Both the position numbers and the translations under genes were made by a program. Below are positions 1,438 through 64,000 of a stretch of DNA of 64,000 nt, piece after piece. This stretch comes from Emticicia sp. C21. Lineage in GTDB: Bacteria > Bacteroidota > Bacteroidia > Cytophagales > Spirosomataceae. The notes under the pieces were generated by a model. The model searched no databases. It saw only the letters and a list, made by a program, of their open reading frames with translations, and was not told the DNA's origin. The stretch is from the NCBI RefSeq assembly GCF_003418935.1, contig NZ_QVMT01000001.1, forward strand, positions 248,001 through 312,000. Reading direction: 5' to 3'. Numbering within the stretch: the first letter of the stretch is position 1; each line of letters begins with the position of its first letter.

Positions 1438-3087
1438 TCATTTATCATTAACTATTTTCTCTTCATTCGGTATATCTTTTTTTGCTAAACCAGCTTTCAT
1501 TTTTGAACTTTGTATTTCTGCTTTTACATCCTGTAATTCAATAGAAGCTAAACGTCCATCTAATTTATGAAGCAAATCCTTAAAAGTTTTAGCCTCATCT
1601 TTCAGTGCCAGCAATTCTGCTTTTAATTGTTGATTTTCTGTTTGTAAATCTGTTGTTCGTTTTTCCAAAGCTTGTGAAAATATGAACAATAACCCATCCA
1701 TATTGATAGTGCTTACGGTTGTATCGGTGCCAATAGTTCCGTAAGTATCTTTGCCAAAAGCTGCAAAGATTTCTTGTGCCATCGGGCCGTAGAAACGCTC
1801 TGCTTTAATACCCTCATTCTTATAATTCCATGAACCCAAGCGCAGATTTTTTAATTTTGTCAGAAAGGATTCTCCGTCTGCCTTGACATATCTTTCTTTT
1901 CTGGTCGAATCGCTAATGCTGTTCCAGGCAGTTTGCCCATTAGAAAGATAAACACCTGTGCGATTTTTATCACCACTAGTCAATAAATAATATCCATTTT
2001 TAAAACGTGCCATAAATTGGTCGTTTACAGTATTGCTGGTAGTACCCTGATCAAGCGGATCACTATCACCAATAATAAAAGAACCCTCTTTACCTGCAGT
2101 ATTTACATGAGCTCCAAGAGCTGTCGATTTATTACCGCTGGCTACTGTCAGATATCCACTTGATAAAGAATAATTGCCACTTGCCTCTGTAAAAAAACCT
2201 GATGCGAAAGCTGAAGAGCCTTTTGCTTTTGAAGTATATCCCGTTGCAAAGGAGGCGTATCCGGATGCTAAAGTATGATAGCCTGTTGATGTACTGGCAT
2301 CTGCTGTAGCAAATGTCTCATCTCCCATAGCCGTTGACCTTTTCCCACTGGCAATTGTACTTTCTCCCATAGCTGTAGAGAAGTCGCCTTCTGCGGTAGT
2401 TTCAGAACCTAATGCTATCGACTTAATACCAAGTGTTTTGGCATAGTAGCCTATGGCTATCGAATTTTCTCCTTCAGCACTTACTGTATTACCAATGGCA
2501 GTTGTATAACTACCAATAGCTTTTGACTGAAAACCTATTGATACAGCAGCAAGATTAGTAGCTTGCGCCTGAAATCCCATAGCTGTTGAGATTTTGCCAC
2601 TGGCTCTGGTATTGAATCCTGTGGCAAAAGAAAAAATACCGATATTATTGGCAGACCAGGCAATAGTATCGTTGGCAGTACCTACCCTGAATGCTGAGCG
2701 GCTTGGTATCCACATAAGCCTGGTACCGAATTCATTGGCAGGCACAGTAGGTGGATTGCTTACATTATCGGCATAATAGCTTACTCCTACCGGATTTTTT
2801 GACCAGAAACCACCTGTATTTGTATTAGAAATCGCATTGCCAGATAAATTCCAGTAATTGGAGGTACTTCCACCTTTAGGTAATTCAGTCCAATCATCAT
2901 TTTGCCAATACCAATAGCTCTTGGTATTTTTATCAAAAACCAACATTCCATTCGCAGGATCTATAATGCTCATGCGTTGTGCGGTAGTCATTTGTGGTAG
3001 TACCAAACCGGGTAGTATTTCAGTACTTTGCGCGAAAGTTATACTGACAGAAAATAGCGTTATGAAAAGAAGAGAAAGTTTTTTCAT
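1438..3087 (-). CDS. YadA-head repeat surface protein with S74 (endosialidase chaperone) C-terminus
   Basis: The protein is about 549 residues. The ATG at 3087 begins a clear signal peptide (MKKLSLLFITLFSVSITFAQ); the reading frame extends nine codons further but those precede the signal peptide. Mature sequence starts STEILPGLVLPQM. Residues about 130-340 are degenerate 14-residue YadA/LbR-type head repeats (AIGYYAKTLG, ALGSETTAEG and similar) that fold as a trimeric left-handed beta-roll. The C-terminus has SDSTRKE...RFYGPMAQEIFAAFG, the intramolecular chaperone of endosialidase (S74), followed by a coiled coil. It is probably a secreted or surface trimeric adhesin or fibre. It is paralogous to the next gene. 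Its promoter carries two box elements shared with the SBBP genes at 57-62 kb. Confidence 0.85.
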   Translation of the reverse strand: MKKLSLLFITLFSVSITFAQSTEILPGLVLPQMTTAQRMSIIDPANGMLVFDKNTKSYWYWQNDDWTELPKGGSTSNYWNLSGNAISNTNTGGFWSKNPVGVSYYADNVSNPPTVPANEFGTRLMWIPSRSAFRVGTANDTIAWSANNIGIFSFATGFNTRASGKISTAMGFQAQATNLAAVSIGFQSKAIGSYTTAIGNTVSAEGENSIAIGYYAKTLGIKSIALGSETTAEGDFSTAMGESTIASGKRSTAMGDETFATADASTSTGYHTLASGYASFATGYTSKAKGSSAFASGFFTEASGNYSLSSGYLTVASGNKSTALGAHVNTAGKEGSFIIGDSDPLDQGTTSNTVNDQFMARFKNGYYLLTSGDKNRTGVYLSNGQTAWNSISDSTRKERYVKADGESFLTKLKNLRLGSWNYKNEGIKAERFYGPMAQEIFAAFGKDTYGTIGTDTTVSTINMDGLLFIFSQALEKRTTDLQTENQQLKAELLALKDEAKTFKDLLHKLDGRLASIELQDVKAEIQSSKMKAGLAKKDIPNEEKIVNDK

Positions 3088-3127: not shown

Positions 3128-3222
3128 CAAAACTATGTCTGGGTATAATCTAAAAAAAAAATATCCCTTTAAAGGGATGAAATCTTATAACGAATGGTGA
3201 TGTTTTTTTAACGAATGGTTAA
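3128..3222 (-). promoter_or_regulatory. Promoter of the YadA-head gene with tandem activator boxes and a palindrome
   Basis: On the minus strand a -7 element TAGTTTTG lies at 3135-3128, 41 bases before the ATG. Two direct copies of TAACGAATGGT have their CGAATGGT cores starting at 3191 and 3212, 21 bases (two helical turns) apart. The first core starts exactly 56 bases beyond the edge of the -7 element, the same offset as the CGGTTGGT cores at the three SBBP genes. Between them lies the perfect palindrome ATCCCTTTAAAGGGAT (3163-3178). No clear -33 TTG is visible, consistent with activator dependence (inference). Confidence 0.55.
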
Positions 3223-3309: not shown

Positions 3310-4983
3310 TTATTTTCTTGCTTTATTATGGATTAAATTCCCGTTCACCTCATCATTCGTTTCCATTTTGCTTAAGCGTGCATCCATTTTTTCAATGATA
3401 TTTCTCAGCCTTTGGTTTTCAGTTTGTATGTCTGCCAATTGTTGTTTTCCGGTCGACACATCTGATGTATGCTGCTGAACTATCTGTTTTAACTGACTAT
3501 TCTCAGCCTGCAAATCTGCCGTGCGTTTCTCCAGAGCCTGCGAGAAAATAAACAATAGTCCATCCATATTGATAGTGCTTACAGTTGTGTCTGTACCAAT
3601 GGTCCCATATTTATCCTTACCAAAGGCCGCAAAGATTTCCTGCGCCATCGGGCCATAGAAACGCTCAGGTTTTGCAGATTTCTGACCTTTATAATTCCAT
3701 GAACCTAAGCGAAGACTTCTTAATCTGTTCAAAAAAACTTCTCCATCTGCACCAATAAATCTCTCTTTACGTGTTGAGTCACTGATTGCACTCCAGGCGG
3801 TTTGGCCATTAGCAATCATGACACCTGTACGAGGATTACCACTACCGCTGGTAAGTAAATAATACCCATTTTTGAAACGGGCTACGAATTGGTCTGTTAT
3901 ACCGCCTCCGGTTACCCCTTCGTTATCCGGATCAGAGTCGCCTATCATAAATACGCCCTTAAAACCATTGGCGTTCATCAGACTTCCCATTACTGTAGAT
4001 TTGTCACCACTTGCGATAGTCTTATATCCGGTGGCCAATGAAATGTCTCCATTTGCTAATGTTTCACTGCCTAATGCAGTAGCAGTAGGCCCCGATGCTC
4101 TGGTATTATTCCCAAAAGCAGTTGAATAATCACCAGTGGCTCTGGTGAAAAAGCCCGCGGCAATGGAAGCTGCGCCTTTGGCTGTTGTAGAAGCACCTAA
4201 AGCAACAGAAGCCAAGGCCTCGGCTTTGGCACCATTTCCTATGGCAACCGAGCCGTCGCTAGTGGCCTCTGTACTAACGCCTGCTGAAAAAGAGTTAGGC
4301 CCACTGGCAATTGTATTTTTTCCCGCAGCTAATGAACTGTTTCCTTTTGCCTGAACATTATATCCCAACGCTACAGAATAGAGACCACTGGCAATAGCAG
4401 CATATCCTGCGGCAATGTTTGCGGTATTCTTTGCCATTGAATTGATTCCCAGACTGATAGAGTATTCGCCTGAGGCGCTTACATCTCTACCCATTGCAAC
4501 AGAATAGGCTCCCTTTGCTTGTGGATTAAATCCTGTTGCAAACGAAAAAACTCCAATACTGTCTGCGTACCAATTGTTTAAGTTATCAACTGTACCAACC
4601 CTGAAAGCTGAGCGGGCAGGTAACCACATTAAGCGCGTACCTGCTTCATTTATAGGTACCGGAGATACAGGAGAATTATAAGCTACCTGAGTAGGATTTT
4701 TTGACCAGAAACCCCCTGTATTGGTATTTTGTATTTCATTACCGGTTCCGGCCAATTGCCAATAGTTAGTTGAGCCATTAGTTATCTCAGTCCATACACC
4801 ATTTTGTCTGTACCAATAGCTTTGGCTACCTGTATCAAAAACCAATGTTCCATTAGTTGGGGTTGACATAGCAGTTCGTTGAGCAGTAGTCATTTGCGGC
4901 AAGACTAATCCAGGTAATATTTCAGTGCTTTGAGCATAAGCGAGATTAGCTATACAAATCAGAAGAATAGTAAATTTTTTCAT
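3310..4983 (-). CDS. YadA-head repeat surface protein with S74 C-terminus (paralogue)
   Basis: The protein is about 557 residues and starts at the ATG at 4983, where a signal peptide begins (MKKFTILLICIANLAYAQ); three in-frame upstream codons are probably not used. Domain order matches the preceding paralogue: mature STEILPGLVLPQMTTAQR, an N-terminal module with GTLVFDTGSQSYWYRQNG, about 14 YadA/LbR head repeats (AMGRDVSASG, ALGYNVQAKG), then STRKERFIGADGE and RFYGPMAQEIFAAFG of the S74 chaperone and a longer C-terminal coiled coil. The two genes are same-direction tandem paralogues 222 bases apart with their own promoters, so independent regulation is possible. It is presumed to be a secreted surface fibre; no T9SS C-terminal signal was recognised. 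Confidence 0.85.
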   Translation of the reverse strand: MKKFTILLICIANLAYAQSTEILPGLVLPQMTTAQRTAMSTPTNGTLVFDTGSQSYWYRQNGVWTEITNGSTNYWQLAGTGNEIQNTNTGGFWSKNPTQVAYNSPVSPVPINEAGTRLMWLPARSAFRVGTVDNLNNWYADSIGVFSFATGFNPQAKGAYSVAMGRDVSASGEYSISLGINSMAKNTANIAAGYAAIASGLYSVALGYNVQAKGNSSLAAGKNTIASGPNSFSAGVSTEATSDGSVAIGNGAKAEALASVALGASTTAKGAASIAAGFFTRATGDYSTAFGNNTRASGPTATALGSETLANGDISLATGYKTIASGDKSTVMGSLMNANGFKGVFMIGDSDPDNEGVTGGGITDQFVARFKNGYYLLTSGSGNPRTGVMIANGQTAWSAISDSTRKERFIGADGEVFLNRLRSLRLGSWNYKGQKSAKPERFYGPMAQEIFAAFGKDKYGTIGTDTTVSTINMDGLLFIFSQALEKRTADLQAENSQLKQIVQQHTSDVSTGKQQLADIQTENQRLRNIIEKMDARLSKMETNDEVNGNLIHNKARK

Positions 4984-5020
4984 AGACGGCAATTTTATTT
5001 AAGATGTTTAATTCCTGATA

Positions 5021-30171: not shown

Positions 30172-30843
30172 TTATCTCAACACATACCCCATTCCAAATA
30201 CGGTATGAATTAATTTTCTCTCAAAATTCTTATCAATTTTCTTTCTCAGATAATTAATATAGACCTCAACATAGTTTGTTCTCCTATCAAAATCAACATC
30301 CCATACTTTTTCGGCTATCTGTGCCTTTGAAAGTACTCTTCCCTGATTCCTCAAGAAATATTCCAATAATTTAAACTCTTGTGCCGTCAATTCTATAACC
30401 TCATTGCCTCTTTTAACGCACTTAGTATCTAGATTTGCCTCTAAATCTTCAAACTTCAATACATCGTGGGTCATTTGTACCTCTGAGCTACGCTTAATGA
30501 GTGAGCGTATCCTTGCCAGTAATTCTAAAAAACTAAAAGGCTTAACCAGATACTGATCGGCTCCAGCATCAAATCCGGCTACTCTGTCGTTTGTGTCTCC
30601 CATAGCTGAAAGTATGAGAATCGGTGCTTTTATACCTGCTTCTCTCAACTCACGAATGAGCATGTGACCATTTATGCCAGGTAGTATAATATCAGTAATA
30701 ATAACAGCGTATTTATTGCGTAAGGCTAATTGCTTGCCTATTAAGCCATCATAGGCTATATCAACTTCATAAAAATTCTCTTCAAGACCTTGCTTAACTA
30801 ACTGTACGGTCTTGAAGTCATCTTCAATCAATAATAATCTCAT
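30172..30843 (-). CDS. OmpR/PhoB-family response regulator (orphan)
   Basis: The protein is 223 residues. The receiver domain has acidic residues E7-D8-D9, the phosphorylation site D51 (VIITDIILPGING) and the lysine in LVKPFSFLELLARI. The C-terminal winged helix ends with RRTNYVEVYINYLRKKI and FGMGYVLR. No histidine kinase is encoded next to it. The CDF gene on the same strand downstream is a plausible target, as related regulators often control metal efflux, but this is inference. Confidence 0.9.
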   Translation of the reverse strand: MRLLLIEDDFKTVQLVKQGLEENFYEVDIAYDGLIGKQLALRNKYAVIITDIILPGINGHMLIRELREAGIKAPILILSAMGDTNDRVAGFDAGADQYLVKPFSFLELLARIRSLIKRSSEVQMTHDVLKFEDLEANLDTKCVKRGNEVIELTAQEFKLLEYFLRNQGRVLSKAQIAEKVWDVDFDRRTNYVEVYINYLRKKIDKNFERKLIHTVFGMGYVLR

Positions 30844-56455: not shown

Positions 56456-57157
56456 CTACTTCTCAGCATACTTATAATCCTTAACTACCCACTCCCCTCC
56501 TTCTTTCTTCGTTAAGAATATAATCAAGTCGGCGTTTTCTTTTTTACCGTAGACTTTTGTTTCTATACGCACATTGGTCTGTCCGTCACGCTTGCTGATA
56601 TTATATCTTGGTATTTTGCCCATTCTAACGATTTCACCTGTTTTCTGTTGTATGGCTTTGCTGCCAATAACAAAGGCTTCCATCAGGATATATTCCTGTT
56701 TCTGACGGATATATAATGCTATCAGATTAGTGCCTGACAGGTACAAAACCAAGAGAATTACAAAAATACCTGCAAACAATTCCGTGCTTCTCTTGATAGT
56801 TGTCTGCTCTGTTGATAGTACATCTGTTTTAAATAGCATATCGCCGATACGTTTCTCTAAAAGGAAGAAAATGAATACTTCCACAGGTAACAAAATCAGG
56901 CTGATATTACGCAGAATAAAACTAATTGCACTGCCAGATTTACTGTGCACAGTAAGCCCCATAAAATACTTACCCGGACTCTGTCCCTTTCTACTATCTT
57001 TGATAATCAGCAAGACAGTCATTAGTCCCAAGGCGGGATAAATCATTGTCTCAAAGCCGAGTTTCCAGACAAATATCCCTAAGTCCATCAGTAAGACTGC
57101 TGGTACTGTAGCAATGAGAAAATCTATCAGAAAGGCGTATATGCGTTTTTGTTGCAT
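56456..57157 (-). CDS. RDD-family membrane protein with a C-terminal extracytoplasmic domain
   Basis: The protein is 233 residues. The RDD domain (about 1-125) has R5-x3-FLIDFLIATVPAV, then KGQSPGKYFMGLTVHSKSG and GDMLFKTDVL. A further helix (about 135-155) is followed by a C-terminal soluble domain (VIGSKAIQQKTGEIVRMGKIP, VYGKKENADLIIFLTKKEG) that resembles cytochrome-oxidase-assembly-factor-1-like domains. Some RDD proteins move sodium or other small ions; the function here is not determined. Confidence 0.75.
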   Translation of the reverse strand: MQQKRIYAFLIDFLIATVPAVLLMDLGIFVWKLGFETMIYPALGLMTVLLIIKDSRKGQSPGKYFMGLTVHSKSGSAISFILRNISLILLPVEVFIFFLLEKRIGDMLFKTDVLSTEQTTIKRSTELFAGIFVILLVLYLSGTNLIALYIRQKQEYILMEAFVIGSKAIQQKTGEIVRMGKIPRYNISKRDGQTNVRIETKVYGKKENADLIIFLTKKEGGEWVVKDYKYAEK

Positions 57158-57231
57158 AAGTATAGTTCAGGCTATGACTTTATGCTCAAATATAGTTTAA
57201 TTCATCAGTTTCAGGAAGTGTAAGGGCAAAT

Positions 57232-57260
57232 AAAAAAGGCTCCGGAAATCCGAAACCTTT
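57232..57260 (-). terminator. Terminator of SBBP gene 1
   Basis: GGCTCCGG (57238-57245), loop AAAT, CCGAAACC (57250-57257) with two G-T pairs; on the minus strand six T follow. Related hairpins end the other two SBBP genes. Confidence 0.75.
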
Positions 57261-57291
57261 GTTTGCACTCTTCTATTTTAATTAATCCATA

Positions 57292-58824
57292 TTAATCTCT
57301 AAGCTTTAATAAAAGAATATCATAAGCTCCGGCCCCAACTACTGAAGTATTATTGAAATGTATTGAATCATAAAAGTAACCCGTTACATACATATTACCA
57401 TTAGGGTCAACTACCACGTCAGTTGGATAATCTTCACCTACCCCACCTGCACTCTGTGCCCATTCGACCATTCCATTTGGTTTAAACTTTGCAAAGAACA
57501 TATCATTATTAGCAAAACTTTCAAGTAATGTTTTTCCTAGATTGATTACACCTCCAAAAAAACCTGAAGCATATATATTACCCTGGGCATCAAGTGCCAG
57601 ACTTATAATATATTCATCTCGTTCTCCTCCATATCTTTTTACCCAAAGCAAGTTACCATTAACATTATACTGAGCTAGAAAGATATCATAATTACCTTCG
57701 CTTTCCAATGATATACTACCAAAACTGGCGATATCCTGAAAACCTCCACCCAACCATAGGCTCCCCTGGGCATCAATAGCAATATCATTAATGTAATCAT
57801 TATTTGTTCCTCCGATTTGCTTTGCCCATACCCATGTATCATTGACATTGTTGTATTTACTAAAAAAAATATCAACGCCCCCTTTACTTGTCAGCGAAGT
57901 ATTCCCAATGGTAATTGTGTTCTTAAAATTTCCAGTTAAATAAATGGCTCCACTGGCATCTATTCCAATACCCTTACTATTATCGGTTGATTGCCCACCA
58001 AATGTTTTTACCCAAGTATAGTCACCCTCAGCTGAATATTTAACAATAAAAACATCAGAATCTCCAAAACCTGATACTATTTTACTACCAAAAATGCTCC
58101 CTCCTTCATAATTCCCTGTTACATATACATTCCCACTTGCATCAGTCACCAAATCAACTCCTATGTCTTCATTTACACCTCCGGCTTTTCTTACCCATTC
58201 CAGTGTACCAATACTGCTATATTTAGCAATAAAAATGTCTTCTTTTCCGGTACTTATCAGACTGGTGTTATCAAAAGTAGCAGTTCCCTGAAAACTTCCT
58301 GTTACAAATACATTTCCGCTATTATCTACTGCTACACTATTACCCGTGTCGGATAATAAACCACCGGCTTTGCGAACCCACTGTGCAACTCCGGCTTTGT
58401 TATACTTGGCAAAAAAAATATCCGTACCCCCTTCGCTGGTATGGGAAATATTACCAAAACTGGCTGTACCTGAAAAATGACCGGTCAAATAGATGTTTCC
58501 ATTAGCATCAAGAGCAATACCCTGGCCCATATCCCCTAATGAACCGCCCGCAGACCATGCGTTAACTCCTGCATAATCAGTGTCTTGGTTTGTTAGTAAT
58601 TTTGCCCATTTTTTACCATCATAAAAACGCAAACACTTGTAGGTTAAATCAGTAGCCAAACTACCTATACCTGGAGATGGCAAGGCCATGATGGCATCAT
58701 AACTCAGACTTGGAATATTACCAGCCATTGCAGGAGTTATTCCGCCCGGTAAAATAGTAACACTTTGTGCAAAACAACCCAAACCTAAAAAACATAGAGA
58801 AACAATTTTTAATAGCGATTTCAT
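57292..58824 (-). CDS. SBBP-repeat secreted protein 1
   Basis: The protein is 510 residues from the ATG at 58824 with signal peptide MKSLLKIVSLCFLGLGCFAQ. Mature SVTILPGGITPAM is followed by a module with LRFYDGKKWAKLLTNQ, and from about residue 80 by seven to eight SBBP repeats of about 47-50 residues (for example GNVFVTGSFQGTATFDNTSL, then KEDIFIAKYSSIGTLEWVRKAGG). These form a beta-propeller. The end DILLLKLRD lacks a recognised T9SS C-terminal signal. It is the most downstream of three tandem paralogues, each with its own conserved promoter box. It is probably secreted; the partner is unknown. Confidence 0.85.
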   Translation of the reverse strand: MKSLLKIVSLCFLGLGCFAQSVTILPGGITPAMAGNIPSLSYDAIMALPSPGIGSLATDLTYKCLRFYDGKKWAKLLTNQDTDYAGVNAWSAGGSLGDMGQGIALDANGNIYLTGHFSGTASFGNISHTSEGGTDIFFAKYNKAGVAQWVRKAGGLLSDTGNSVAVDNSGNVFVTGSFQGTATFDNTSLISTGKEDIFIAKYSSIGTLEWVRKAGGVNEDIGVDLVTDASGNVYVTGNYEGGSIFGSKIVSGFGDSDVFIVKYSAEGDYTWVKTFGGQSTDNSKGIGIDASGAIYLTGNFKNTITIGNTSLTSKGGVDIFFSKYNNVNDTWVWAKQIGGTNNDYINDIAIDAQGSLWLGGGFQDIASFGSISLESEGNYDIFLAQYNVNGNLLWVKRYGGERDEYIISLALDAQGNIYASGFFGGVINLGKTLLESFANNDMFFAKFKPNGMVEWAQSAGGVGEDYPTDVVVDPNGNMYVTGYFYDSIHFNNTSVVGAGAYDILLLKLRD

Positions 58825-58845
58825 GAATTTTATATAAAATTTCTT

Positions 58846-58920
58846 CAAAATTACCTCCAAACCCAATGGCATTTTCATATTTCAGGCATTATCAATTTAT
58901 AATTTTATCGGTTGGTACAT
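58846..58920 (-). promoter_or_regulatory. Promoter of SBBP gene 1 with conserved upstream box
   Basis: On the minus strand TAATTTTG (58853-58846) is the -7 element. The box AATTTTATCGGTTGGTACAT (plus strand, 58901-58920) has its CGGTTGGT core beginning at 58909, exactly 56 bases past the -7 edge. The same spacing occurs at the other SBBP genes and the YadA-head gene. Confidence 0.7.
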
Positions 58921-58976
58921 ACTTATTCTAAAGAGATGTCGGAGCTGTTTCAACATATGAGATAATAATAAATAAC

Positions 58977-59003
58977 AAAGGTTTCAGACTTTCTAAAACC
59001 TTT
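58977..59003 (-). terminator. Degenerate terminator of SBBP gene 2
   Basis: AAAGGTTT (58977-58984) pairs with AAACCTTT (58996-59003), with AGA/TCT inside. It is the equivalent of the hairpins ending SBBP genes 1 and 3 but without a T run. Confidence 0.45.
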
Positions 59004-59030
59004 GTTTACACTCTTCTACTTTAATTAATA

Positions 59031-60561
59031 TTATTCTTTTGCCCTGACAACGAAAATATCAGTACCTGTTGTACTTGAAAATGAGCTACTACCAAACTTA
59101 AGCTCTCCATTAAACCTTCCAGTGATATATATTCCCATTAGCCTCCACATCCATACCATATACATCAATACTCGCTCTGCCTCCTATTTTTTGAACCCAT
59201 TGGCTTGTGCCATTGGTATTTAGTTTAGCAATATATGCATTATTTGAACCATCGTTACTGAGCCAAGTACTACCAAAGTTAGTTAAGCCATAAAAGCCTC
59301 CGGTTATATAAATATTGTTTTCACTATCTAATCCTATTTTCATAACATGATCAGAATATTTTCCTCCTTCTCTTCTAACCCAATTATTATTTCCACTTGG
59401 ATAGTATTCTGCAATATAAATATCATCGTCACCTTCGCTTATTATTGTTTTACCTTCAAACGTAGCCGTATTTTCAAACGTGCCTGTAATCAAAATCTTA
59501 TCACCTGAAGCAATGATAATAGCTCTTCCAAAGTCACCTCCAGTCCCTCCTCCCCGTTTTGCCCATACCCATGTAGTATTTATTGGATTGTATTTGGCAA
59601 TAAAAAGATCCGAACTTCCTGCACTAGTTAAGGAAGTATTTCCGAAATTCATGGTGCTATTAAAATTACCTATAATATACACACAACCAGTATTATCGAC
59701 TGCAACGCCTTCAACAGAATCGTCACTTGTTCCCCCTGCACTCTTTACCCATTCCAAAACTCCGTCAGTATCATATTTAGCAATAAATACATCAGTGCTG
59801 CCTACACTTGTAATTGAGGTGTTGTTAAATGAAGCAACATTACTAAAATCACCTACCAGGTATACTTCTCCATTATTTCCAAGAAACAAACTTTTTCCGT
59901 TATCACTATTTACACCTCCGGCCTTCTGCACCCAAACAATTTCACCGTTAGTATCATATTTGGCAAGAAAAACATCTGATACTCCTCCACTAGTTAGTGA
60001 TAGATTATTAAAATTGGTCGTACCAGTGAAATTCCCTGTCATATATATATTGCCACTCTCATCTACCTCTATTTCTTCGACAACATCATAGCCTGAGGCG
60101 CCTGCCTTTTTTAGCCATAAAAAGTTGCCATTTTTGTCATATTTTACCAAAAAAATATCGGCACCACCACTGTTTGAGATAGTCTGGTTACCGATAGTCA
60201 GATTCTGAAAAAAAATGCCTGTTAAATAAACATTTCCATTCGCGTCTGTTTTTATATCATACCCTCTTTCCATTTCTGAGCCCTTCTCTACCCAGGCTGC
60301 TGCAGCCACCGGACTTGAATCTTTATTGGTTAAGACTTTTGCCCAGCTACTCCCATCATAGTAACGCAAGCATTTGAATGTTAAATCATTAGCCAGACTA
60401 CCAATACTTGGTGATGGCAAAGCCTCAATTTGCTCGTTAGTAAGTGATGGAATATTACCAGCCATTGCAGGAGTAATTCCTCCTGGTAGAATGGTTACAC
60501 TTTGCGCTAAAGTGACCAAACTTAAAAAACAGAGACAAACAATTTTTAATAGCGATTTCAT
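59031..60561 (-). CDS. SBBP-repeat secreted protein 2, C-terminus frameshifted
   Basis: The protein starts at the ATG at 60561 (MKSLLKIVCLCFLSLVTLAQ, then SVTILPGGITPAM) and has the same layout as its paralogues, with eight SBBP repeats. In the current sequence it ends early at 59110 after ANGNIYHWKV. The neighbouring frame continues ITGRFNGELKFGSSSFSSTT and GTDIFVVRAKE to TAA at 59033-59031, matching the paralogues. A 2-base loss in an AT-repeat (GATATATATT, 59124-59133) explains this. Only about 35 residues are affected, so the truncated protein could still fold in part. Slippage in the AT repeat could be phase variation or a sequencing error. Confidence 0.75.
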
Positions 60562-60582
60562 AAATTTCGTATAAGGTTTCAT

Positions 60583-60657
60583 CAAAATTACCTTCAAATT
60601 ATATGTCCTTTTCAAAATGCCTACATTATCAGTTCATAATCTTATTGGTTGGTACAT
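60583..60657 (-). promoter_or_regulatory. Promoter of SBBP gene 2 with conserved upstream box
   Basis: TAATTTTG on the minus strand (60590-60583) and the box AATCTTATTGGTTGGTACAT (60638-60657) have the same 56-base offset from -7 edge to box core (60646). Confidence 0.7.
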
Positions 60658-60700
60658 TGTTTTTTTAAGGAAGCCAAACTGTTTATTTACCCAAAAGATT

Positions 60701-60731
60701 AAAAAATAAAGGCTTCAGAAATTCTGAAGCC
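60701..60731 (-). terminator. Terminator of SBBP gene 3
   Basis: GGCTTCAGA (60711-60719) pairs perfectly with TCTGAAGCC (60723-60731); on the minus strand TTTATTTTTT follows. Confidence 0.8.
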
Positions 60732-60765
60732 TTTGATTACCCTTTTCTACTTTAATTAATCTATA

Positions 60766-62298
60766 TTAATCTCTTACTCTTACAATAAAAACATCTAGAT
60801 TGCCGGCACCACTTATCGGCATATTTCCAAAGCTTGTGTCATAATTAAAATAACCTGTCAGGTAAATATTTCCATTTGCCTGTACAGTTGCCCCTCCTAA
60901 AATTTCTTCTGTTGAACCTCCTAATCTTTGTGCCCATTGTATAGTATTATTTGATTTATATTTAGCAATAAATCCATCGATAGAATTTGCAAAGCCTGTT
61001 AAAGGAATACCTGAAAAATCTGCAATACCATAAAAATCTCCGATTAAATAAATATTGTCGTTGGCATCAATACCTAGATATTTTGGTGTTTCAGTACCAG
61101 TTCCACCTTCTTTTTTGAAAGATTGCTCCACGCCATTATTATTATATCTGGCAATAACAATATCAGATGGACCAGCACTTATAAAAGTGGTAGTTCCAAA
61201 AGTAGCAGTCCCCTCAAAAGTTCCAGCCACTATAATATCTCCTGTTACAGAAATAGCTAAAGCTTTTCCATAATCATTTCCTCCTCCTCCTCCCCTTTTT
61301 ACCCATTCCCAAGCCGCAGTAGTTGTATTACACTTAGCAATAAACATATCAGCAAATCCACCACCCGTTATAGTAATATTACCAAAGTTGACTGTACCCT
61401 GAAAACTACCTGTCATATAGATATTTTCATCCATATCAATGGCAATCTTTCCACATTTATCAGAATTTGGGCCTCCTGCTCTTCGTACCCATTGTATATC
61501 ACCGGTACTTGCATATTTAGCTAAAAAAATATCATCAAGCCCTTCACTTACCACTGAAATATTATTAAATGTAGCTGTATTTCTAAAATATCCTCCTACA
61601 TATACGTTTCCGTTAGCATCTGTAACTAAGCTACTAATTAAATCTGGTTGGTTACCTCCTCCTTTTTGTACCCATTGAAACACCCCGTTAGTACTATATT
61701 TAGCTACAAAAAAATCCTGATTTCCTGCACTTGTTAAAGTAGTATTGCCTATACTTGTTGAATTATAAAAATAGCCTGCTATAAATACATTTCCGTTTGC
61801 ATCCACTGTTATGCCATAAGTACCCTCAGCGTCTGATTGCCCCTCTTTTTTCGCCCAAAGCAGTTCTCCATTTTTATTATATTTGGCAATAAAAATGTCA
61901 GTTTGTCCGCCATCGGTAAAGGTAGTATTACCAATTGTAATGGTATTATCAAAAGTTCCGGTTACATAGATATTCCCAAAACTATCTACAGCTATAGCTT
62001 CTCCTCTGTCATTACCTATACCACCTTCCGACCAGGCTTTAACAGAAGGCATATTGCTATCTGTTTCGGTTAATAATTTTACCCATTTTTTGCCATTATA
62101 AAAACGCAGACAATCAAAAGTCAGATCAATAGCCATATTACCTTTTTGAGGAGCTGGTAATGCCAGAATATCCTCATAACTCAGGCTAGGCCAACTACTC
62201 CCGGCAGGCGTAATACCACTGGGTAGAATAGTAACATTCTGTGCTAAACTGCACAAACTCAGTAAACAAAAACAAACAGCTTGTAATAGAGATTTCAT
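60766..62298 (-). CDS. SBBP-repeat secreted protein 3
   Basis: The protein is 510 residues from the ATG at 62298 with signal peptide MKSLLQAVCFCLLSLCSLAQ. Mature NVTILPSGITPAGSS and the module LRFYNGKKWVKLLTE precede about eight SBBP repeats (GNIYVTGTFDNTITIGNTTF, then QTDIFIAKYNKNGELLWAKK). It ends LDVFIVRVRD. It is complete and has its own promoter with two boxes and its own terminator. It is the most upstream of the three paralogues. Confidence 0.85.
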   Translation of the reverse strand: MKSLLQAVCFCLLSLCSLAQNVTILPSGITPAGSSWPSLSYEDILALPAPQKGNMAIDLTFDCLRFYNGKKWVKLLTETDSNMPSVKAWSEGGIGNDRGEAIAVDSFGNIYVTGTFDNTITIGNTTFTDGGQTDIFIAKYNKNGELLWAKKEGQSDAEGTYGITVDANGNVFIAGYFYNSTSIGNTTLTSAGNQDFFVAKYSTNGVFQWVQKGGGNQPDLISSLVTDANGNVYVGGYFRNTATFNNISVVSEGLDDIFLAKYASTGDIQWVRRAGGPNSDKCGKIAIDMDENIYMTGSFQGTVNFGNITITGGGFADMFIAKCNTTTAAWEWVKRGGGGGNDYGKALAISVTGDIIVAGTFEGTATFGTTTFISAGPSDIVIARYNNNGVEQSFKKEGGTGTETPKYLGIDANDNIYLIGDFYGIADFSGIPLTGFANSIDGFIAKYKSNNTIQWAQRLGGSTEEILGGATVQANGNIYLTGYFNYDTSFGNMPISGAGNLDVFIVRVRD

Positions 62299-62330
62299 AA
62301 GTTTAGAAAAGATTTTATTAAAAAACTCAT

Positions 62331-62448
62331 CAAAACTATGGTGAGTTTTTGCCCCATTTCTAAAATCTTTGAATTATCATTTCATAATTTTATCGGTTGG
62401 TACATAAGAGTTTAAGGCATTAGAAGAGAATTTTATCGGATGGTAAAT
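62331..62448 (-). promoter_or_regulatory. Promoter of SBBP gene 3 with two tandem boxes
   Basis: TAGTTTTG on the minus strand (62338-62331), box AATTTTATCGGTTGGTACAT (62386-62405, core at 62394, 56-base offset) and a second copy AATTTTATCGGATGGTAAAT (62429-62448, core at 62437), 43 bases upstream of the first. Confidence 0.7.
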
Positions 62449-62596
62449 AGATGGATAAATGCTAATATATTGGCTGGTTGTTTAATAATCCTATTATTTA
62501 ATAATTGTCCAAAATTCGTTAAAAAATATACGCATTTTTGTATACAGTAGTCCGCACTTTTTTGTTTATGAATACGTTATTTTGCACAAAAAACAT

Positions 62597-62604
62597 TACT
62601 TTTG
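62597..62604 (+). promoter_or_regulatory. -7 element of argS
   Basis: TACTTTTG fits TAnnTTTG and lies 41 bases before the ATG at 62646. A TTTG is present upstream but at non-standard spacing. Confidence 0.5.
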
Positions 62605-62645
62605 CAGAAAAAATCCGCTTCAGACAGAAGCGCATTTCACAATCT

Positions 62646-64000
62646 ATGAATATCGAATCATCATTAAAGTCTGCTATCAAGCAAGCCTTATCAGCGCTAT
62701 TTCAAGTTGAAGAAGAAGTAGTTTTACAACCTACCAAGAGTGATTTTGAAGGAAACTATACCTATGTGGTTTTTCCTTTAGTAAAACAACTCCGAAAAAG
62801 TCCGGCTGATATTGCCAATGCCATTGCAGATTATCTAAAAACCAACACAAATTATATTAAGAGTTATAATGTAGTTCAGGGCTTTCTGAACCTGGTTTTG
62901 GCCGATGAAGTATGGTTTAATACATTAAACGGTATTCTAGCCGAAGAAAGCTTCGGTGTTTTACCTAAGAATAACCAATCAGTAATGGTTGAGTATTCAT
63001 CGCCTAATACTAATAAACCACTGCACTTAGGACACTTAAGAAATAATTTTTTAGGGTTTTCGGTATCTAGAATATTAGAAGCTAATGGCTACGATGTAGT
63101 AAAAACCTGTCTGGTAAATGACCGTGGGGTACACATCTGTAAGTCTATGTGGGCTTATCAGCAATTTGGTAATGGCGAAACGCCCGAGTCATCTGGCTTA
63201 AAAGGTGACCATCTGGCTGGTAAATACTATGTTATTTTCGACAAGCATTATAAAGTTGAGATTGAAGCCTTGGTGAAAGGCGGTTTGAGCGAAGAAGAAG
63301 CCAAGAAAAATGCGCCGGCCATGAAAGCCGTACAAGAAATGCTGATTAAATGGGAACAAGGTGATGAAGAAACAATAGCGCTATGGCGTAAAATGAACGA
63401 CTGGGTATTTGCAGGATTCAACGAAACTTACCAAAAAATCGGTGTATCGTTTGATAAAACCTATTATGAATCAAATACCTATCTATTAGGGAAAGATATT
63501 GTAGAAGAAGGTTTAGCTTATGGCGTTTTCTTCAAAAAAGATAATGGTAGCGTATGGATTGATTTGAAAGAAGAAGGACTTGATGAGAAACTGGTGCTTC
63601 GTGCGGACGGTACTTCGGTATATATTACACAGGATTTAGGTACCACCGATTTAAAGTTTAAAGACTATAATATCAGCAAAGCTATCTGGGTAGTAGGTAA
63701 TGAACAGGATTACCACTTTGAGGTACTTTTTGCTATCATGAAAAAACTGGGTCGCAATTATGCAGATGGTTGTTATCACCTGAGCTACGGAATGGTGGAA
63801 TTACCTCAAGGCAAAATGAAATCTCGTGAAGGTACTGTAGTAGATGCGGATGATCTGGTAGCTGAAATGATAGAAACAGCCGAAGTGACAACCCGTGAGC
63901 GTGGCAAGATTGATGATTTTACGAAAGAAGAAGCTGATGCCTTATTCCGGATGATTGCCTTAGGTGCTTTGAAATACTTTTTATTAAAGGTGGATCCGAA
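62646..64000 (+). CDS. argS: Arginyl-tRNA synthetase, 3' partial
   Basis: The reading frame is open to the window end, giving the first 451 residues of a family usually near 580-600. The N-terminal add-1 domain is followed by VEYSSPNTNKPLHLGHLRNN (HIGH motif H127-L-G-H130) and the Rossmann catalytic core, then GNEQDYHFEVLFAIMKKLG and the KMSKS-equivalent K390-M-K-S-R-E-G396. It charges tRNA(Arg) in the cytosol. The tRNA-binding C-terminus lies outside the window. Confidence 0.95.
   Translation, partial: MNIESSLKSAIKQALSALFQVEEEVVLQPTKSDFEGNYTYVVFPLVKQLRKSPADIANAIADYLKTNTNYIKSYNVVQGFLNLVLADEVWFNTLNGILAEESFGVLPKNNQSVMVEYSSPNTNKPLHLGHLRNNFLGFSVSRILEANGYDVVKTCLVNDRGVHICKSMWAYQQFGNGETPESSGLKGDHLAGKYYVIFDKHYKVEIEALVKGGLSEEEAKKNAPAMKAVQEMLIKWEQGDEETIALWRKMNDWVFAGFNETYQKIGVSFDKTYYESNTYLLGKDIVEEGLAYGVFFKKDNGSVWIDLKEEGLDEKLVLRADGTSVYITQDLGTTDLKFKDYNISKAIWVVGNEQDYHFEVLFAIMKKLGRNYADGCYHLSYGMVELPQGKMKSREGTVVDADDLVAEMIETAEVTTRERGKIDDFTKEEADALFRMIALGALKYFLLKVDP

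Follow-up and report, generated by a model that had tools for sequence, protein, structure and literature searches.

Surface-protein genes of the window and a shared promoter element

We analysed a 64,000-nucleotide stretch of the 6.64 Mb genome (G000) of Emticicia sp. C21, positions 248,001 to 312,000 of contig NZ_QVMT01000001.1 and called the window here, for a short promoter element, the box, that stands before four of its surface-protein genes. Three of these genes encode SBBP beta-propeller proteins (SBBP1 to SBBP3) and the fourth, YadA-head gene 1, a protein with YadA_head and S74 domains (Table 1). Following a signal peptide, whose cleavage site we judged by eye, the four proteins begin with related sequences of the ILPG type (QSVTILPGG twice, QNVTILPSG and QSTEILPGL). 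SBBP1 to SBBP3 are tandem paralogs, SBBP2 being 47% and SBBP3 44% identical to SBBP1, so the three SBBP sites are not three independent events. Terminator-like hairpins separate these genes, and each therefore plausibly needs its own promoter.

In all four promoters, each read on the minus strand, the core of an ACC-type box (minus-strand reading WACCAWYCGWTAWAA) starts exactly 56 bases beyond a TAnnTTTG element, the near edges of the cores lying at 58909 (SBBP1), 60646 (SBBP2), 62394 (SBBP3) and 3191 (YadA-head gene 1); a composite pattern search matched all four, each with a total length of 71. This fixed offset had been claimed in an earlier note on the same DNA and holds at every site, as does its claim of second copies, which lie 43 bases further up at SBBP3 (62391 to 62434) and 21 bases further up at YadA-head gene 1 (3188 to 3209). 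The latter pair is an exact 21-base direct repeat of 10–11 bases. The cores were said to be CGGTTGGT or CGAATGGT throughout; this is so in three promoters, while that of SBBP2 is TGGTTGGT. If TAnnTTTG is taken as −12 to −5, the core occupies −75 to −68 in the four promoters, with extra copies at −96 to −89 (YadA-head gene 1) and −118 to −111 (SBBP3). The box of YadA-head gene 1 (ACCATTCGTTA) is unlike the SBBP box (ACCAACCGATA), and two further boxes, the distal one of SBBP3 (TACCATCCGATAAAA) and one from the relative Emticicia agri (TACCGTTCAATAAAA), are intermediate in sequence.

The usual spacing of a −33 TTG is 17–23 bases. No TTG lies at this distance before the −7 element in SBBP1, SBBP3 or YadA-head gene 1, in keeping with the earlier note; SBBP2, for which the note also found none evident, has one at 22 bases. 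Its lack in three of the four promoters suggests dependence on an activator. The −7 TAnnTTTG is exact in all four, as in the Bacteroidota sigma-A promoter, which has this element at −12 to −5 in Flavobacterium psychrophilum (PMC9723704) and from which the window promoters differ by the missing TTG.

Table 1. Genes, promoter elements and related loci (window coordinates unless a genome is named)
Feature	Position	Strand	Sequence and remarks
SBBP gene 1	57292..58824	-	beta-propeller repeats, 510 aa, AQSVTILPGGITP
-7 element, SBBP gene 1	58846..58853	-	TAATTTTG; 56 bases from box core, 29 before ATG
Box, SBBP gene 1	58903..58917	-	TACCAACCGATAAAA; inside conserved 33-base block 58888-58920
Terminator-like hairpin between SBBP genes 2 and 1	58974..59006	-	suggests separate transcription units
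SBBP gene 2	59110..60561	-	483 aa, early C-terminal end
-7 element, SBBP gene 2	60583..60590	-	TAATTTTG
Box, SBBP gene 2	60640..60654	-	TACCAACCAATAAGA
Terminator-like hairpin between SBBP genes 3 and 2	60708..60734	-	
SBBP gene 3	60766..62298	-	510 aa, AQNVTILPSGITP
-7 element, SBBP gene 3	62331..62338	-	TAGTTTTG
Proximal box, SBBP gene 3	62388..62402	-	TACCAACCGATAAAA; kept in E. agri
Distal box, SBBP gene 3	62431..62445	-	TACCATCCGATAAAA; 43-base spacing same in E. agri
YadA-head gene 1	1438..3087	-	YadA_head and S74 chaperone domain, 549 aa, AQSTEILPGLVLP
-7 element, YadA-head gene 1	3128..3135	-	TAGTTTTG
Proximal box, YadA-head gene 1	3185..3199	-	CACCATTCGTTATAA
Distal box, YadA-head gene 1	3206..3220	-	AACCATTCGTTAAAA; direct repeat of LytTR type, lying exactly 21 bases upstream of the proximal box
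Conserved module: LytTR, two secreted proteins, GAF-LytTR	G000:C28:366099-369543; E. agri G081:C1:221764-225200; G074:C12:753176-756623		

Conservation of the box and its distance

We compared the promoters with those of a same-genus relative, G081, which appears to be E. agri and is called so here, and used G074 as a third genome. Between SBBP3 and its E. agri counterpart the box block is identical at 30/33 positions and the upper box at 17/18, as against 15/34 in the spacer to the −7 element and 3/23 in the stretch between the boxes; both distances are unchanged, with 67 bases from block start to −7 element in each species. Within the window, SBBP1 and SBBP3 likewise share 31/33 positions of the block and 10/34 of the spacer, again at 67 bases. 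A fixed distance across a diverged spacer is the trace one would expect of a protein site locked in phase with the promoter. A box-only scan also found an E. agri SBBP gene (C36:56711) whose box, TACCGTTCAATAAAA, has the same offset to TACATTTG.

A second boxed YadA-head gene, C1:166382-168010, lies outside the window and encodes YadA_head and S74 domains; its promoter has an SBBP-type box, CCAACCGATAAAA (CCAACCGATAAAATAATGA), at the same offset to the −7 element TATTATTG, as well as an inverted second copy 34 bases up. The E. agri counterpart keeps both the box and the inverted copy, 35 bases apart (TATCATTG). This gene supports one box serving both families better than YadA-head gene 1 does, and on these comparisons the element appears to be genuinely shared between the SBBP and YadA-head families. 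The claim that one box controls the two families is upheld to that extent, by the conservation in E. agri and by this gene; it does not extend to the families as such. Searches with SBBP1 and YadA-head protein 1, keeping genes with matching N-terminal ends, gave 32 paralog promoters (17 SBBP and 15 YadA/S74-type), five of which are within three mismatches of the box plus −7 element and 26 of which have six or more. The remaining one, C1:176410, has five mismatches and its E. agri counterpart two. We rejected the box as a control of all SBBP or YadA paralogs, since only 5 (perhaps 6) of the 32 promoters carry it; the window's second YadA-head gene (3310-4992) is among those without.

Specificity of the element

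Exact matches to ACCAWYCRWTA, a pattern written after the sites had been seen, number six in the window, all of them the sites described above, where 0.64 would be expected; a count of six was never reached in 100 shuffles. With a matrix derived solely from five E. agri sites, the four SBBP boxes take ranks 1 to 4 in the window; this matrix places the distal box of YadA-head gene 1 8th, with a score level with about three chance matches per 64 kb, and the proximal box of that gene is absent among the 25 best window matches listed. Upstream of the 32 paralogs, 13 of 7776 positions carry TAnnTTTG, a frequency that gives a chance of about 0.002 of a match at one preset position.

The box with its offset was not found to be frequent before unrelated genes in our scans; had it been, the proposal would by the earlier note's own test have been refuted. 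The genome holds 21 exact copies of CCANYCGWTAWRA: six precede four genes (SBBP1, SBBP3 twice, YadA-head gene 1 twice and C1:166382-168010), and the other 15 fall within open frames, on one or the other strand, that span 70 codons or more; the SBBP2 box, one base off CCANYCGWTAWRA, falls outside this list. In a named genome collection, which may leave out the window's own genome, the strict composite matched at 26 places. Of these, 23 are within reading frames; among the three that are not, the E. agri match is the only one followed by a secreted SBBP protein. A scan of 81 genomes of the family with CCANYCGWTA and 46–58 bases to TAnnTTTG returned 77 matches vs 85 for the reversed control, and with no enrichment we rejected the box as a family-wide element. 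The same composite gave four matches vs one in the window's own genome. On present evidence only part of Emticicia has the element.

In the genome of the window, ACCAYTCAATAA boxes also stand before three other genes (L001, L002 and L009, at C1:194182, C1:1012861 and C1:989294), 11–12 bases nearer TAnnTTTG than the window box, or about one helical turn; the genes behind them have signal peptides.

Direct repeats before LytTR genes

LytTR operators are described as two direct or inverse repeats of 9–11 nt separated by 11–13 nt, with no common sequence (PMC4847170); their spacing is conserved and their sequence differs between systems (PMC6193735). The pair at YadA-head gene 1, with 10–11 bases and a 21-base period, has this layout or nearly so. 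The site also keeps a consistent position upstream of the promoter, as is typical of LytTR operators, in the four window promoters, in E. agri and at a LytTR gene in three genomes, described below. Among known systems, the YpdB operator consists of GGCATTTCAT twice, i.e., two short repeats spaced by about two helical turns, upstream of the promoter, and the proximal repeats of AgrA are centred near −60 (PMC4847170, PMC4227749). YadA-head gene 1 resembles these in its paired repeats upstream of the promoter, whereas at the SBBP promoters there is a single strong box, or a pair at 43 bases, the promoter is of the Bacteroidota −7 kind, and the candidate regulators are without a receiver domain.

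LytTR matches number 62 in the genome of the window and 67 and 68 in two others of the genus. Autoregulation would place similar repeats before LytTR genes, and such repeats occur: under a fixed rule (10 of 11 bases matching, low complexity removed), 11 of 68 promoters of stand-alone LytTR genes, i.e., those for a LytTR domain with no receiver, have a repeat at lag 21, with none at lag 20 and none at lag 22, although orthologs inflate the 68. The other 57 have no lag-21 repeat by this rule, and the repeat sequences differ between paralogs. Within the window's own genome, lag 21 is found before 5 of 23 stand-alone LytTR genes, before 2 of 22 that encode longer LytTR proteins, and before 7 of 117 genes of other kinds, YadA-head gene 1 itself being one of these seven controls; comparison of 5/23 with 7/117 gives a Fisher p of 0.028. 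Over all 162 of these promoters, lag 21 occurs 14 times vs a total of six over the nine lags 17–20 and 22–26; several of the 14 are non-independent (one duplicate pair and two divergent pairs), and one upstream stretch is coding.

Two further cases are a response-regulator gene within the window (30172-30843, minus strand), with TTTGCTGTA repeats at lag 21 upstream of 30843, and a stand-alone LytTR gene, L283 (G000:C12:51901), with ACCATTCAGT and ACCTTTCAGT at lag 21 upstream, near the YadA-head pair of the window in sequence.

Repeats resembling the box before a LytTR gene

A relaxed scan of E. agri matched the promoter of a 146-residue LytTR protein (PF04397, E 2e-20), which has orthologs in the window genome (86% identity) and in G074 (78%). 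In all three genomes its promoter carries repeats of the ACCGTT.GATAA type with a 21-base period, which lie exactly 56 and 35 bases from the −7 element (TACCTTTG in E. agri, TACCTTTG in the window genome and TAACTTTG in G074). Downstream of it lie a gene for a secreted protein of ~300 residues, at −1 to 2 bases, and 12–17 bases later another; these proteins begin, e.g., with AQSASITISPENG and AQSTTITPEGG, N-termini similar to those of the window surface proteins, and no Pfam family matched the two from the window genome. On its other side the LytTR gene faces a divergent GAF-LytTR gene, and the strand of the latter carries, in E. agri, three ACC-type boxes with a spacing of 21 bases. This arrangement recalls the LytTR regulatory systems (LRS) of Streptococcus mutans (HdrRM/BrsRM), in which a stand-alone LytTR regulator has direct repeats, mostly at 12-base spacing, upstream of its own operon; LRS-like operons with membrane-spanning LytTR regulators are also described in Bacteroides (PMC6193735). 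The 146-residue gene shares with LRS a stand-alone LytTR protein and upstream direct repeats. It differs in what it adjoins, since in LRS a membrane inhibitor accompanies the regulator, and no such operon was found at this locus in the three genomes, where two putative secreted-type proteins follow and a GAF-LytTR gene lies opposite.

A secreted protein of this kind is next downstream of 5 of the 23 stand-alone LytTR genes of the window's own genome (our reading; short stretches hid some neighbours). Stand-alone LytTR genes at G000 C1:1012390, C1:988842, C32:105809 and C29:403774 lie directly upstream, on the same strand, of secreted surface-protein genes, and two of these four neighbours encode giant SBBP proteins, their open frames being 6511 and 4856 codons long.

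By site and offset the 146-residue gene fits best, yet G074 has it without boxed SBBP promoters, and we rejected an assignment of the box to one LytTR protein. Because of those boxless promoters and of the matrix scan described below, we name the class of regulator with fair confidence and the protein at G000:C28:367285 only as the best single candidate. Two LytTR genes ~7 kb beyond SBBP3 (C1:317181-318025) fell outside the 28 top-scoring promoters listed for the matrix scan.

Interpretation

The box is probably the operator of a LytTR-family protein that would activate a subset of secreted ILPG-type paralogs (SBBP and YadA-head/S74). The earlier note held that the regulator could not be told from sequence, which was too pessimistic as to its class, for which LytTR appears to be the best fit. 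In our searches of open-licence papers, none linked LytTR with SBBP or with Emticicia, and two mentioned LytTR, Bacteroidetes and direct repeats together. In the mechanism that we propose, a stand-alone LytTR protein of the genus would most likely bind the box, whose core lies near −75 to −68; repeated copies 21 or 43 bases up would be bound on roughly one helix face; the bound protein would help RNA polymerase at promoters where the −7 TAnnTTTG is good and the −33 element mostly missing; and a chosen subset of the large set of secreted ILPG-type paralogs would be switched on as a result. We infer here binding, activation and the identity of the protein: an activator reaching RNA polymerase from upstream would be the natural reading, with repression possible. 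If it is a LytTR landing site, the box would be a visible switch for surface proteins in the Emticicia group, and with a defined operator and position, candidate regulators and targets, the choice among dozens of surface proteins becomes directly testable.

Several findings weigh against a LytTR operator, or against its assignment to the 146-residue protein. SBBP1 and SBBP2 have one strong box each in place of two repeats, and the copies at SBBP3 (43 bases apart) and the inverted pair at the second boxed YadA-head gene (34/35 apart) are not at 21. The SBBP block has a conserved extension, to GATAAT, that is missing from the box of YadA-head gene 1. A second GATAAT lies 16 bases after the GATAA of the SBBP box (58888-58893, 60625-60630, 62373-62378), is kept in E. 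agri and is unexplained by the LytTR layout. Nor is lag 21 exclusive to LytTR genes, given the 7 of 117 other promoters above and the nine cases at lag 24 and eight at lag 21 among a broader set of 262 controls, relatives included. A matrix scan of 97 LytTR frames put the 146-residue gene first only through G074 (11.4), the repeat of the window genome scoring 6.4 and the E. agri promoter being absent from the 28 best listed; the SBBP-type box itself was in none of the LytTR promoters examined in that scan. The G074 promoters without a box, despite the LytTR gene and its repeats, are two SBBP promoters. Relaxed scans with three mismatches at the fixed offset gave 25 matches vs 13 for the reversed control in the own genome, with no convincing target beyond the known promoters, and relaxed scanning of E. 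agri gave 25 vs 16, the extras being the 146-residue LytTR gene and a secreted-protein gene (C6:30325) amid coding matches and other promoters.

The earlier note had one activator coordinating both families. The shared fixed-offset element agrees with this, and a single activator may serve both, but the boxes differ and the genome has 62 LytTR matches. In a variant of our explanation with not quite an even chance of being right, two LytTR paralogs would act, one on the SBBP-type box (SBBP1 to SBBP3 and the second boxed YadA-head gene) and the other on the ACCATTCGTTA pair at YadA-head gene 1. The difference between the box cores, the low rank of the YadA box with the E. agri matrix, the many LytTR matches and the several distinct lag-21 repeat sequences speak for two paralogs; the common offset of 56 and the intermediate sequences TACCATCCGATAAAA and TACCGTTCAATAAAA speak against them. 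More tentatively, and on balance with the chances somewhat against it, the dozens of stand-alone LytTR proteins could be private switches that choose the propeller or YadA-head paralogs to be displayed, each through a 21-base-phased operator and a feedback loop of its own; the window box would be one of them and would act in trans on two families.

We consider it unlikely that the box is the operator of another regulator family (e.g., AraC-type or another one-component regulator), with the 21-base pair of YadA-head gene 1 incidental. Most boxed promoters are indeed without such a pair, and the SBBP block is 33 bases long with its second GATAAT; against this stand the exact 21-base repeat at YadA-head gene 1, the lag-21 excess before LytTR genes, the box-like repeats at offset 56 before a LytTR gene in three genomes, and the secreted proteins of the same kind that adjoin LytTR genes. 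It is very improbable that there is no regulation and that the shared upstream sequence is residual homology from tandem duplication and recombination, as the tandem arrangement of SBBP1 to SBBP3 might suggest, because, within one species as well as between the two, block and distance persist across spacers down to 29–44% identity, and the box recurs at non-homologous YadA-head genes, once as an inverted pair.

Other features of the SBBP region

An Rfam search of 57000-63000 matched no RNA element. Near the 3' end of SBBP gene 2 the stop comes early, and the last repeat resumes in another frame past a short TA-rich run; possible explanations are gene decay, an error in sequencing and a slippage site.

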